Origin: Draconibacterium aestuarii
GTDB taxonomy: Bacteria > Bacteroidota > Bacteroidia > Bacteroidales > Prolixibacteraceae
DNA: 64,000 nt
Direction of reading: 5' to 3'
Assembly: GCA_026671195.1 (NCBI GenBank)
Contig: JAPOHD010000031.1
Location: forward strand, 166,831 to 230,830
This document shows, piece after piece, positions 2,553 to 40,779 of the stretch. The first letter of the stretch is position 1. Each line of letters begins with the position of its first letter. The translations under genes were made by a program, and so were the position numbers. A model generated the notes under the pieces. The model was not told the DNA's origin, did not search any database, and worked only from the letters and a program-made list of their open reading frames with translations.

Positions 2553-3200
2553 CTAGGCTAATTCGAGAATTTTGTCAATTACATTGTTCGCTCCCAAAGC
2601 AATCTGATCGATTGTGGCATCAAGCATATAACATGGCGTGGTAATCACTTTGTACTTTTCATCCACAACTATTTCGCCGTGAGTTGTTTTTACATGAGTA
2701 GCTCCCAACGTTTCAATGGCATCAGCCGTTCCCTGATCCTGCCCGATTGTAACTTCTACGTCGCCAAGTACTTTGGCAATTAATGCCGGAGAAATGCACA
2801 AGGCTCCAACAGGTTTTTCAGCTACAGCAGTACTTCTGATCGCCTTTTCAACATCTTCGTTTACAGTGCAGTCGGGGCCATCGAAGGCAAATGTACAGAG
2901 GTTTTTTGCGGCACCAAATCCACCCGGAAAAACGATGGCATCGTATTCGGCAGCGTTGTATTCTGAAAGCGCTTTAATATTTCCTCGCGCTATACGAGCT
3001 GCTTCAACCAAAACATTTCGGGTTTCGGGCATTTCTTCGCCGGTTATATGATTAACTACATGTGCCTGATTGATATCGGGAGCAAAACACTGGTAAGAGG
3101 CTCCTTTTTGTGCAATGGCCAGTAAAGTTAAAGTAGCTTCGTGAATTTCGGCTCCGTCATAAACGCCATTTCCGGCCAAAACAACTGCGATTTTTTTCAT
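2553..3200 (-). CDS. elbB: ElbB-type glyoxalase / DJ-1-PfpI superfamily protein
   Basis: A protein of about 215 residues matching ElbB (GATase1-like, DJ-1 superfamily), reported in E. coli as a glyoxalase and historically linked to isoprenoid synthesis. Diagnostic stretches are AVVLAGNGVYDGAEIHE at the N terminus, FPGGFGAAKNLC, and the nucleophile elbow GALCISPALIAK with its cysteine. I start at the ATG at 3200 (MKKIAVVLAG), because this matches the usual first strand. An upstream in-frame ATG at 3224 would add eight unlikely residues. It leads a short minus-strand series with the TatD and TcdA genes. Its start lies about 90 bases from the end of metA, so readthrough from the methionine operon is possible. 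Confidence 0.85.
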   Translation of the reverse strand: MKKIAVVLAGNGVYDGAEIHEATLTLLAIAQKGASYQCFAPDINQAHVVNHITGEEMPETRNVLVEAARIARGNIKALSEYNAAEYDAIVFPGGFGAAKNLCTFAFDGPDCTVNEDVEKAIRSTAVAEKPVGALCISPALIAKVLGDVEVTIGQDQGTADAIETLGATHVKTTHGEIVVDEKYKVITTPCYMLDATIDQIALGANNVIDKILELA

Positions 3201-3290
3201 CTGTATCGATTTTTGAATTTCCACTTCAAAATTACGGTTTAATCCTGAAAGTTGGAAATCAGGAAACGAACTACATTGATTTTATACGTT

Positions 3291-29004: not shown

Positions 29005-31066
<2,062 letters not shown>

Positions 31067-36420: not shown

Positions 36421-37332
36421 TTACAATTGTAACCCACCAATTATTTCGTTAACCGACTGCATATTATGGCGTTTCATATAATCTTCGATACCTTCTACAA
36501 TCTTCAGCGGAATCATCGGATCTGTGAAAATTGCAGTACCTACCTGGATAACTGACGCACCAGCCAACATAAATTCGATGGCATCGGCAGCATTCATAAT
36601 ACCACCAATTCCAACAACCGGTATTTTAACTGCATTAGCCACTTGCCAAACCATGCGAAGTGCAATTGGTTTAATCGCCGGTCCTGACAAACCACCTGTA
36701 ATTGTTGACAGTTTTGGAGTACGCGATTCAGCATCAATTGCCATTGCCAGAAAAGTATTTACCAAAGAAACAGAATCGGCACCCTGCCCTTCAACTGCTT
36801 TTGCAATCTCAGTAATATCGGTAACATTTGGCGAAAGTTTTACAATCATGGTTTTATTGTAAACTTTTCGAACCTCGCGAGTTACCATTTCTGCCCCCGG
36901 ACATGTTACTCCAAAAGCCATTCCGCCTTCTTTTACATTTGGACACGAAATATTTAGTTCAATGGCCTGAATATTATCAAGTTCGTTAACCTTCTCTGTT
37001 AAAGCAATATAATCTTCAACTGTAGAACCGTTTACATTAATAATTAACTGCGTATCGTAATCTTTTATTTCGGGATAAATATTATCAATAAAATAGTCAA
37101 TCCCTTTGTTTTGTAGTCCAACGGCATTTAACATCCCCGATGGGGTCTCTGCCATTCGCGGATATGCATTACCATCACGATTTTTAAGGGTTGTCCCTTT
37201 TAAAAAATGCCCACCAAGTAATCCCGGGTCGTAAAATTCAGCTATTTCTCTTGCAAAGCCACATGTTCCCGAAGCCAATGTTACCGGGTTTTTAAACTCT
37301 AAATTGTGTAATTTAACCTTTAAATTTACCAT
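36421..37332 (-). CDS. pyrD: Dihydroorotate dehydrogenase, class 1B catalytic subunit
   Basis: A 303-residue class 1B enzyme that oxidises dihydroorotate to orotate, passing electrons to NAD through PyrK. The catalytic base is Cys130 in the NISCPNVK motif. FMN contacts appear as [10 protein letters not shown] at the N terminus, [24 protein letters not shown], and [31 protein letters not shown] near the end. It overlaps the pyrK stop region by seven bases (37326-37332), so the two form one transcript with pyrK first. Class 1B enzymes need this partner, and it is present. Confidence 0.95.
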
Positions 37333-38102
37333 TTCAATTCATTAATATTAAACACCGGTCCATCTGTACAAACACATTGATTTCCTTGATTTGTTGGCTC
37401 AATACAACACAGACATACTCCAAAACCACACGCCATAAGATTTTCGAGCGAAACCTCACAGAAAACTTCGGCAGTCTTTGCTTCTTTGGCAATGGCACGC
37501 ATCATACCATCAGGTCCACACGCATATATCTTATTATAAGCCTTTAGATTAGTAGTAAATACGGAGTGTTGCGTAACAAATCCTTTCTCACCTATAGAAC
37601 CATCTTCTGATGCATAATGCAAATTTGCATAATTTGAATACTCATGTACATCAACATGATCCTCACTGGTGCGAGCCCCAAGCAAAATGTCTACATTTTC
37701 AATAGGCAATCCCGATTCTTTAGCAAGAAATAACATTGGAGCAACGCCACTTCCTCCTCCAATTAACAGAATTCTATCATTTTTTTTCGGGTAGGTAAAA
37801 CTTTTTCCAAGTGGATAAACAAGACTTATTGAGTCACCTGCTTCAATCTGAGTTAATTTCTTCGATCCTCTTCCAAGTATTTTAATAATCATTGAAAGAG
37901 TATTCGCTTTGTAGTCTACTTCAAAAATAGAAAACGGGCGTCGTAGAAATATCTCGGAAGCATCTTTAATCTCAACATTTACAAACTGTCCGGGTTTAAT
38001 TTCTGGCAATATTAAATCGCTTTTAATTTTAATCAGAAAATTGGTAGAATTAAGCTTTTTATTCTCTACCACCGTAAAATCGGTTACAAATTTTTTAGAC
38101 AT
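37326..38102 (-). CDS. pyrK: Dihydroorotate dehydrogenase electron transfer subunit (PyrK)
   Basis: A 258-residue iron-sulfur flavoprotein that carries electrons from PyrD to NAD+. The FAD-binding RRPFS motif is at residues 54-58, the NAD-binding [14 protein letters not shown] around 111-124, and the [2Fe-2S] cysteines in the C-terminal segment (Cys225, Cys230, Cys233 and Cys243 or Cys245). It is upstream of pyrD and overlaps it by seven bases. The Ile/Val-rich start [15 protein letters not shown] is normal for the family. The other de novo pyrimidine genes, apart from pyrG, are not in this window. Confidence 0.94.
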
Positions 38103-38171
38103 GTATTAAAATTTGCGGGCAAAGATAATAGAATTATTCCTGTTTTTAAGATGCACAAATTTCTATAAAAA

Positions 38172-38251
38172 GAAAAAGACCGCTATACTTAGCGGCCTTA
38201 TATTTGTAATCTATGTTAAGATAAAAAATAAAGGGTCTTGATTGAATAATA
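38172..38251 (-). ncRNA. Candidate small RNA, module 1
   Basis: It would be transcribed from the promoter at 38258-38289 and end at the hairpin CCGCTA/TAGCGG (38080-38195 region: stem bases 38080 excluded, 38180-38185 with 38190-38195), which a T-rich stretch follows on the minus strand. The predicted RNA is about 80 bases. No open reading frame or known RNA family is recognised. Confidence 0.35.
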
Positions 38252-38311
38252 ATATTACAAATGTGCAAACAATAATTTACATATGCAAACTTTTAGGAGA
38301 AATAATTTTAC
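38246..38311. repeat. 66-base direct repeat, copy 1
   Basis: It is identical to 38477-38542 except for one base (T or C at the eighth position). Within it lie ACAAATGTGCAAAC and TTTACATATGCAAAC, which on the minus strand form the promoter of module 1. Confidence 0.95.
38258..38289 (-). promoter_or_regulatory. Promoter-like element of small-RNA module 1
   Basis: On the minus strand TTTG (38286-38289), then 20 bases, then CACATTTG (38258-38265), one base off the -7 consensus TAnnTTTG. Confidence 0.45.
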
Positions 38312-38357
38312 AGGGATAAATAATACTATTAGAAAATATATTTGATAAGTACCTTAA

Positions 38358-38482
38358 CCAGAAATGGCCACTAATACTAGTGGCCAAGCGACTTCTGGAT
38401 TTAATAACTTCTAAAATTGGGTTTGTAAATTTGATCTATTATAATTTAATCATCCTGTCTTGTTAATGTGTCATTCATAATA
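38358..38482 (-). ncRNA. Candidate small RNA, module 2
   Basis: Predicted to start near 38482 and end at a strong hairpin. TGGCCACTA (38365-38373) pairs perfectly with TAGTGGCCA (38378-38386) around four bases, and an outer CCAGAA/TTCTGG pair sits at 38358-38363 and 38393-38398. Only a short T stretch follows, so the 3' end is uncertain. Confidence 0.35.
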
Positions 38483-38542
38483 ACATTACAAATGTGCAAA
38501 CAATAATTTACATATGCAAACTTTTAGGAGAAATAATTTTAC
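38477..38542. repeat. 66-base direct repeat, copy 2
   Basis: Matches copy 1 (38246-38311) at 65 of 66 positions; the two start points are 231 bases apart. Confidence 0.95.
38489..38520 (-). promoter_or_regulatory. Promoter-like element of small-RNA module 2
   Basis: The same arrangement as module 1: TTTG (38517-38520), 20 bases, CACATTTG (38489-38496) on the minus strand. Confidence 0.45.
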
Positions 38543-38840
38543 TCTTCTGTATCTATCCTTTATTTGTTGCAATATAAAGTCTTTACATATGTGACACAAG
38601 CGATGATCTTCGTAATGGATATTAATGTTTTTGGATCACCCGGAAAATCCATTGTATTTCCATTTTATGATCACAGGTTTTAATATCCTCTTTTAAGTGA
38701 TTACCTAAAAGTTTTTAATTTATTATTGTATATATGATTTAATACTAGGAACTTTTCCCTGTCGTAAGCTATAATATACTGGCTTAATCCAAATAGTCCA
38801 TCTTTTAGAGTTATAAATACATACAAGAAAGTGCAGGAAA

Positions 38841-38960
38841 CAACAAAGACCGCTAAATTATTAACGATCTTTGTTGCTCTGGAGTATTAACACCAGGTTA
38901 TTAGTTTACATTAAATGTTACGACATCCACCACTATTCTCTACAATTGTGATATCTGTAA
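38841..38960 (-). ncRNA. Candidate small RNA, module 3
   Basis: Predicted to start near 38960 and to end at the hairpin CAACAAAGA/TCTTTGTTG (38841-38849 with 38868-38876), whose 18-base loop is followed by TTT on the minus strand. It shares no sequence with modules 1 and 2 except the promoter pattern and the AAAGACCGCTA string in its hairpin. Confidence 0.35.
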
Positions 38961-38966
38961 TTATTC

Positions 38967-38998
38967 CAAATGTAAAACAAATGCTTTACAAATGCAAA
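38967..38998 (-). promoter_or_regulatory. Promoter-like element of small-RNA module 3
   Basis: TTTG (38995-38998), 20 bases, then TACATTTG (38967-38974) on the minus strand: an exact fit to the Bacteroidota promoter consensus. Confidence 0.55.
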
Positions 38999-39440: not shown

Positions 39441-39848
39441 TCATCTTTTTTTATAGGTAACAAAAGTACCATCCTTGTATAATAGAACCATACGATCTAA
39501 ATCATCTTCCCTTTCATTCACCGGTATTTCCTTAATTTCAATTTTTTTATACTCAGTTTCAACGCTTTCTTTTGGAGGAGGTGGAACAATATTCTCAAAA
39601 AGTAATTTATTACTCATCGGTTGTGTTGCTTCTACATCCCCTTCTAACATGGCTCCTGCACCTGTGAGCAACCACCTGGCATTTAAATCCGGAAAAACTA
39701 CAAGCAATTTTTCGATAAAAGAAGCACCTGGTTTATTTCTTCCGTTCAGAATATGAGAAATATTAGACCGCTGTACATCAAGCATCCCGGCCAGTTCTCC
39801 TGCGGAAATCCCCTTCTGTTCAATAAATTGTTTTATACGATCTTTCAT
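39441..39848 (-). CDS. Small XRE-type helix-turn-helix regulator
   Basis: About 135 residues with the ATG at 39848; a TTG at 39869 extends the frame but falls in a motif-like box. The HTH spans roughly residues 1-58 (IKQFIEQKGISAGELAGMLDVQRSNISHILNGRNKPG), followed by ARWLLTGAGAML, a phrase typical of Bacteroidota XRE proteins of this type. A short charged C-terminal part carries PPPPKES and a final strand (MVLLYKDGTFVTYKK). No prophage or partner gene adjoins it; it stands alone in 2.6 kb of otherwise non-coding DNA. I infer that it may bind the repeated ACAAATGT/TTTACATATG motifs around it. Confidence 0.85.
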   Translation of the reverse strand: MKDRIKQFIEQKGISAGELAGMLDVQRSNISHILNGRNKPGASFIEKLLVVFPDLNARWLLTGAGAMLEGDVEATQPMSNKLLFENIVPPPPKESVETEYKKIEIKEIPVNEREDDLDRMVLLYKDGTFVTYKKR

Positions 39849-40779
39849 GTGAATTGAATTTAAGCACAAATGTGATTAATGGTTTTATAGAGTTTGATAA
39901 CATTTGCACTCACTTGATACAAATGTAATAAATAATATTTTATTTGCAATAGGTTCATTGTCTTTTATGTCCTATAAAAATTCATTAAAGGCTTATTTTA
40001 GATTATAATACACTTTAATAATATTGCATATTAATCTGACATTGAGCATATTAATATGAATATTACTAACAATTAAGTCCATTATATGCCAATTTTTAAA
40101 ATTATATTATAAAACACAATAGATAACAAATCGTATAACACAGAAATAGTGATATATATGAGTAATAATATACATTGGTATCTTCCCTATTGTAAAAAGT
40201 ATGGATATAGATTATTCAAAGAAGGGATGGTGTAGAAAAATGTGTAACATATTCTTTTTATAAAATTTGAGATGCTTGATATCTTATAAATAATTAAAAT
40301 TGTAATCATAATGACTTGTTACAAATGTACAATACAGAATTACTGCACATTTAATTTCGTGGCATGACTAAATTAAGCTGTGTCACATTTGTAAATACAG
40401 AGCTTATCACATAAGTTAATCGTTTAGTTTTCAAATTTGTATTGCAAATATGTAACCACCATTATCATCTAAGCCCTTTTAAAGATTTCCCTTTTTCTTC
40501 AGACTCTTATAATTTCACTTACCAACAAAAAAGTTAAGTTTAAGTATATTTCATTACGGTATTTATTAGGAAGATGTCACAACTTTAAAAATATCCAATT
40601 TTCAGGCAGTTAAATCGATAAAAATATGACCACAGTATTTTGATAATAAACAGCTTAATATTAAATATTATAAATTGAATTTATGCAAGGAATAGAATTA
40701 TAACTACACTTTGATCTATTATTTAGAAAAATATCATGAATTGAAAATTGTTATAGCTAAAAGAATACGAAAAAATGAG
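39849..40779. other. AT-rich gene-free region upstream of the XRE gene
   Basis: 931 bases with no protein gene. It holds the XRE promoter and scattered ACAAATGT-type motifs (for example CAAATGTA at 40322-40329 and CACATTTG at 40384-40391), without the clear modules seen to the left. Confidence 0.6.
39920..39949 (-). promoter_or_regulatory. Promoter of the XRE regulator gene
   Basis: On the minus strand TTG (39947-39949), 19 bases, then TACATTTG (39920-39927), an exact -7 match. It gives a leader of about 65 bases before the ATG at 39848. A second CACATTTG box (39867-39874) lies inside that leader and could be a self-regulation site. Confidence 0.5.

Follow-up and report, generated by a model that had tools for sequence, protein, structure and literature searches.

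What occupies the gap between the XRE-type regulator gene and the pyrK-like gene of Draconibacterium (Bacteroidales), and how might it be expressed? In the window, that is, the whole stretch of 64,000 nucleotides analysed here, the minus strand carries the pyrK-like gene, encoding a dihydroorotate dehydrogenase electron-transfer subunit (37326..38102) and followed by pyrD, and the first gene upstream of the gap is an XRE-type regulator gene (39441..39869). A preliminary description of the locus had placed such a regulator upstream on the same strand, and this is borne out by matches to HTH_19 and HTH_3. Between the two genes lie three minus-strand units, arranged in the order of transcription S3, S2, S1, each consisting of the sequence TTTG-N20-(C/T)ACATTTG and, downstream of it, a strong hairpin. 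The most probable explanation for this arrangement is that the units are three separate small RNA genes with their own sigma-ABfr-type promoters and hairpin terminators, most likely acting in trans, and residing in an XRE-pyrK gap that has expanded in this lineage.

The predicted promoters are found at 38967..38998 (S3, TTTG-N20-TACATTTG), 38489..38520 (S2, TTTG-N20-CACATTTG) and 38258..38289 (S1, TTTG-N20-CACATTTG). All three match the consensus exactly, and they are the sole exact matches in the 64-kb window, in agreement with the preliminary description. When one mismatch is allowed, the pattern is found five times, versus 2.19 expected in shuffled sequence, and for the looser form TTTG-N17-22-TAnnTTTG there is no enrichment at all (7 matches in the window versus 5.35 expected, with 28 of 100 shuffles reaching 7). 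The promoter consensus alone is thus no evidence for the units; its conservation is. The threefold repetition of the promoter, noted in the preliminary description, is likewise real, but the three sites do not represent independent observations, since the promoters of S1 and S2 sit in a duplicated block of 66 nucleotides (38246..38311 before S1 and 38477..38542 before S2) whose copies are 98% identical and spaced 231 nucleotides apart.

The element at -33 had been described as TTTG. That tetranucleotide is present, but what is conserved in S2, and often in S1, is a longer near-palindrome, TTTGCATATGTAAA, which starts 32 nucleotides before the end of the downstream TTTG (38507..38520 for S2 and 38276..38289 for S1). 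All 22 core S2 sequences carry it at the same spacing with no more than one mismatch, so that in silico an own promoter can be assigned to each unit by the consensus and to S2 by this extended element as well. For S1, 13 of 21 sequences carry the element with at most two mismatches, and a box search of the same 21 sequences gave no S1 promoter box in L026, L038 and L051. The corresponding region of S3, TTTGCATTTGTAAA (38985..38998), has one mismatch to the S1/S2 element and is mostly unconserved, the S3 promoters of relatives being mostly without TTTGCATATGTAAA. Elsewhere in the window, positions 30854..30867 form a perfect palindrome, TTTACATATGTAAA, that is one letter off the small RNA -33 element. 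The duplicated block may also record an event in the history of the locus. In genome G008 (L021), two entire S2 genes lie 231 nucleotides apart, the same spacing as that of the 66-nucleotide repeats in the window, and the sequence around the S1 promoter differs from that of the window. The simplest history would be that only the promoter of a second S2 copy survives in the lineage of the window, the rest of that copy having been lost, and that this promoter now drives S1.

Each unit would give a transcript of its own, started at its sigma-ABfr-type promoter on the minus strand and ended by its hairpin, with predicted ends at 38835..38960 (S3, ~125 nt), 38350..38482 (S2, ~130 nt) and 38166..38251 (S1, ~85 nt). 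The hairpins had been called strong, and folding of the putative transcripts gave z-scores of -4.18, -2.27 and -5.25. In S3 the hairpin and putative terminator spans 38841..38876, in S2 the 3' hairpin spans 38358..38398 and folds with CCAGAA...TTTCTGG as the outer and GGCCACTA/TAGTGGCC as the inner stem, and in S1 an intrinsic terminator was identified at 38176..38199 by a terminator scan. This simple scan returned three sites versus 0.8 expected. Two are the S1 and S2 hairpins on the minus strand, and the third is the S1 hairpin found a second time, on the plus strand; the hairpin of S3 was not flagged. A 3' hairpin of the kind that ends small RNA genes is thus predicted for every unit, with the qualification that in the core group the U tract behind the S2 hairpin is interrupted, which makes this hairpin a poor classical terminator. 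Two of the hairpins do share AAAGACCGCTA in the window, as had been noted, but this identity is not kept in relatives, where the S1 and S3 hairpins differ.

Are the units conserved? In the taxonomy used, Draconibacterium and Maribellus form one genus with the genome of the window, represented by 37 genomes. In a collection with one genome per species, a pattern for S2 is found in 11 records, nine from Draconibacterium or Maribellus and two from Bacteroidales MAG contigs. When 61 genomes were searched at the DNA level, S2 was matched with E values no higher than 1.4e-17 in the genome of the window and in 18 others, all of the same genus. Scanning the 37 genomes with models of the units found S2 in 23 (25 places), S3 in 20 and S1 in 22. 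In 19 of the 37, its own included, the three units occur together in the same order between the XRE gene and pyrK; since the models were built from those 19 loci, matches there are by construction not independent. The conservation in relatives that the preliminary description had proposed as a check is seen in order and place, as well as in the hairpins of S3 and the S2 family, which covary (see below). The regulator gene itself was recognised by its HTH motif in 20 of 20 core loci. Two short MAG contigs, L051 and L052, contain the entire cluster.

Outside the model set, S2 is matched at five places in four genomes (G014, G016, G022, and G026 with two), at E values of 1e-5 to 0.004, and all five independent matches lie no more than 0.9 kb upstream of pyrK. 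S1 and S3 were not detected by the model scan at the pyrK locus of these four genomes, and as units at that locus they are found in the core group only. Further matches to S3 are weak (second places in G003 and G013, plus G025, with E values of 0.008-0.01), and a further match to S1 in G036 is cut by a contig end beside pyrK. In L146 (G026), two S2-like genes stand in tandem at 2747..2886 and 3128..3269. The S1 model also returned, at weak scores (E values of 0.003-0.008), off-locus copies of the S1 core in the form ACCCTTATTTTTTATC, as found in L021; these lie near position 1519 in L138 (G026), L140 (G035) and L141 (G012), each precedes a hairpin, and those of L138 and L140 lie behind what is apparently the same gene. 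The units had been presented as one family of small RNAs. Conservation and compensatory changes speak for small RNAs; the idea of a family calls for refinement, as S1, S2 and S3 differ in sequence and may not be copies of one another, and only S2 has recognisable further members at the locus, with one or two per genome.

The history of the gap becomes apparent from the regions upstream of pyrK at 40 other places, ten in the genus and 30 in other genera of the family, mostly taken from the best pyrK matches and in some cases ending at contig ends. A search for the motif TTACAARCCC marks 14 S2-like units, spread over 12 of the 40 regions. Seven of these regions are from genomes of more distant species within the genus (L142, L143, L145, L146, L148, L150 and L151, which include G014, G016, G022 and G026) and five from genomes of genera g213 and g214 (L152-L155 and L157). 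All 14 units have a promoter box 56-63 nucleotides before the motif and a terminator end 69-92 nucleotides after the motif start, within permitted ranges of 25-105 and 35-140 nucleotides, and they overlap the five independent matches. The motif is absent from 28 of the 40 regions, including 25 of the 30 from other genera, and in 24 of those 30 the XRE-pyrK gap is 35-170 nucleotides long and without the motif. Four regions (L149, L177, L178 and L180) have a hairpin with a T run, without the S2 motif, between XRE and pyrK or just 5' of pyrK. The C-terminal tail motif of the XRE protein places its gene next to pyrK, on the upstream side, in 39 of 41 regions, counting the window. Hence the gene pair is old, and the small RNAs seem to have been added to it later, in a single lineage, in which a gap that is short in most of the regions from other genera would have been filled and expanded.

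Across the family, a whole-genome scan of 100 genomes with the R2 model gave matches in 13, each a member of the genus, and missed the units of g213 and g214, which were found by motif and place; the scan thus understates the spread. Across the order, where only one other member of the genus was included among 393 genomes, R2 matched the genome of the window and G357. The latter, the genome of L052, has been placed in a different family, where one of 23 genomes has S2, and misbinning or transfer is the likely cause. The R1 model gave weak matches in nine of the 393 genomes besides these two (E values of 0.003-0.009 for one genome). We take them to be chance matches, since about four would be expected at an E value of 0.01 per genome and a motif search found no PyrK motif at the nine loci.

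The conservation extends to structure as well as to sequence: compensatory changes are seen in S3 and in the S2 family and not in S1. In the S3 stem, 91.5% of the cells in the alignment (21 sequences) are paired, 56 double-side changes are found versus 19.8 in shuffles, and 10 of the 14 pairs are changed on both sides in some sequence. For the S2 family, covariation was assessed on 24 of 36 sequences, namely ten of the 22 core sequences and the 14 S2-like units, the latter chosen partly by the 3' arm and U tract and not by pairing. Here 98.4% of the cells are paired, 32 cells are changed on both sides versus 10.0 in shuffles, and sliding the partners against each other destroys the pairing. 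Two other counts, of pairs with a double change (5 versus 3.8) and of further pair types (10 versus 11.5), do not exceed the shuffles. The stems of S1 and of the core S2 hardly vary, and consequently contribute almost no covariation.

In addition, each RNA has conserved sequence of its own. In S2, the segment TTTACAAACCCA (38418..38429) contains TTTACAAACCCAA, which lies outside the stem, is unpaired in the consensus fold and is invariant in all 22 core sequences; these were not selected by it, whereas TTACAARCCC is present in the 14 S2-like units by selection. The 5' part of S3 carries TTGTAGAGAA, present in 16 of 21 aligned sequences, and S1 (21 sequences) keeps CCCTT-ATTTTTTA and has its conserved core, GACCCTTTATTTTTTATC, at 38220..38237. 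The interpretation of the units as small RNAs is supported by this conservation, by their order, and by the covariation of the S3 and S2-family stems; transcription, transcript ends and action in trans are inferred.

Several other explanations deserve consideration. That the units belong to a mobile element or a simple repeat, with no function as RNA, is suggested by the near-perfect 66-nucleotide repeat and by changes in S2 copy number between species, and yet strong matches to S1 and S3 occur once per genome at one locus, all matches to S2 fall there too, one S2 pattern had no match in the viral contigs scanned, and the hairpins covary; such an element is hardly credible. It is very unlikely, too, that the units are short genes for small peptides, such as a type I toxin. 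Open reading frames of about 40 amino acids overlap the region, and many S2 members have an AUG within GACARGAUG, but by eye the frame from this AUG stops within about 3-14 codons and its peptide differs between species, and the length variation of S1 and S3 is not in multiples of three. A further reading is that the hairpins are leaders or attenuators of the pyrK-pyrD operon, either terminating transcription or passing it into pyrK. S1 lies directly upstream of pyrK in 21 aligned loci, and its 5' AAGACC could, by eye, pair with the 3' arm of the terminator. However, pyrK appears to have a promoter of its own, with the -7 box TATCTTTG at 38120..38127. All 20 core loci have a TAnnTTTG box in the interval from S1 to pyrK, and 36 of 41 regions, some of them from genera without the S2 motif, have one within the 110 nucleotides before pyrK. 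With a box in this position S1 is not likely to be a leader of pyrK, and three promoter-hairpin units in series are a poor fit to one attenuator. We therefore consider attenuation improbable. Pairing of S2 with the start region of pyrK itself was weighed by eye and dropped.

If the units are small RNA genes, what do the RNAs act upon? None of the conserved sequences, UUGUAGAGAA in S3, UUUACAAACCC in S2 and ACCCUUUAUUUUUUAUC in S1, is part of a hairpin, which is what would be expected of contacts with mRNA or protein, and for this reason all three RNAs most likely act in trans. For S2, it is conceivable, though we would not call it probable, that UUUACAAACCC serves as an antisense seed by which the RNA represses mRNAs. 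GibS and FopS are reported to act by pairing of a seed with the start of translation (PMC7366714, PMC11697453), and an invariant, unpaired motif is in keeping with it. A search for partners with YGGGTTTGTAAA, limited to exact 12-mers in ten genomes, gave 65 places, 11 of them S2 itself, compared to 32 for a reversed control pattern. By a crude test, 16 of the 54 non-self sites are outside open reading frames on either strand, among them L190, which is probably coding. A complementary site overlaps the start region of a gene in G020 (L204) that by eye resembles PorP/SprF. Near the middle of L182, from the genome of the window, and of L209 (G007), the sequence CGGGTTTGTAAA, which is likewise complementary to the motif, stands between a stop codon and a terminator. 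Nevertheless, L204 is the one antisense site of the 54 that clearly lies just before a start codon, with L230 being ambiguous, as against three of 54 in the sense orientation, which lie 26-29 nucleotides before a likely start codon (L216 and L237; L220 by eye).

The sense copies raise a different possibility, in which S2 is a decoy that would titrate a factor binding just before start codons. A longer form of the motif, TACAAACCC-N3-9-AAGTT, ends 3-7 nucleotides before an ATG at five sites: one in L216, two in L210, from the genome of the window, and two in L228, the counterpart of L210 in G008. In L210 and L228, these copies are other than the site by which the locus was selected. In a scan of mostly selected loci, this form has 21 distinct matches, the remainder being S2, and its reversed control has none. 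By eye, three of the five leader copies precede exported-looking proteins and two precede a 23-codon open frame common to L210 and L228. In L210 (about 1500-1960) and L228 (minus strand), the leader of an exported-looking gene contains four ACAAACCC modules together with this 23-codon frame. Because a few mRNAs carry the same short stretch before a start codon, S2 could titrate a leader-binding factor, and the leader copies hint, on few cases and as a lead only, at decoy over plain antisense action. A decoy role for S2 is accordingly held here with low confidence. The fuller version, in which S2 RNAs imitate a translation-start element, UUUACAAACCC-n-AAUUUAAGUU, a few nucleotides before the start codons of certain exported proteins and so titrate a putative RNA-binding factor, is more speculative and rather unlikely; similarly doubtful is its corollary that the UUACAARCCC part of this element has been kept in small RNAs multiplying at one locus.

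Whichever way S2 acts, the locus would represent a new small RNA cluster in a lineage outside the gut Bacteroides, one that is clear and conserved, with a traceable gain and visible changes in copy number. As a candidate system of gene control, it has in the invariant motif of S2 an immediate starting point for identifying targets or a protein that binds the RNA. No Rfam family reaches its threshold for the units of the window or for 17 relative loci at gathering or permissive settings (BTnc231, for instance, scores 13.8 bits versus a threshold of 80.4), and nothing usable was returned for the leaders. In the open literature, our searches found no small-RNA paper on Draconibacterium, no on-topic noncoding-RNA work for Prolixibacteraceae as judged by title, none pairing a Bacteroidota small RNA with an RNA sponge, and none for the decoy terms combined.

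Decoy RNAs of the CsrB/CsrC type repeat an element of mRNA leaders and titrate its binder. S2 would resemble them in both respects if the decoy interpretation is right, with the difference that CsrB and CsrC have many elements per RNA, whereas S2 has one, and a binder that is putative. A decoy S2 would then make for regulation of the Csr kind in a phylum reported to have mRNAs without Shine-Dalgarno sequences (PMC6847099), and an element common to RNA and mRNA leaders, should it hold up, would be of use in testing how such bacteria tune translation. The Bacteroidota small RNAs that we found in print come from gut Bacteroides (PMC11697453, PMC7366714), and by description two of these, GibS and FopS, are the closest known kinds, both reported to repress mRNAs via conserved unpaired seeds in the 5' part (PMC7366714, PMC11697453). 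FopS is described as a 14-member paralogous family in Bacteroides thetaiotaomicron that is conserved in Bacteroidaceae, and shares with the cluster its sigma-ABfr promoters, short RNAs, conserved 5' part and several paralogs within the Bacteroidota; the comparison, made by description, sets 14 paralogs in Bacteroidaceae against one locus here (PMC11697453). GibS is, like the units described here, an intergenic Bacteroidota small RNA that has an intrinsic terminator and a seed that is conserved and single-stranded, and it differs from them, again by description, in its PM2 promoter type and its locus (PMC7366714).
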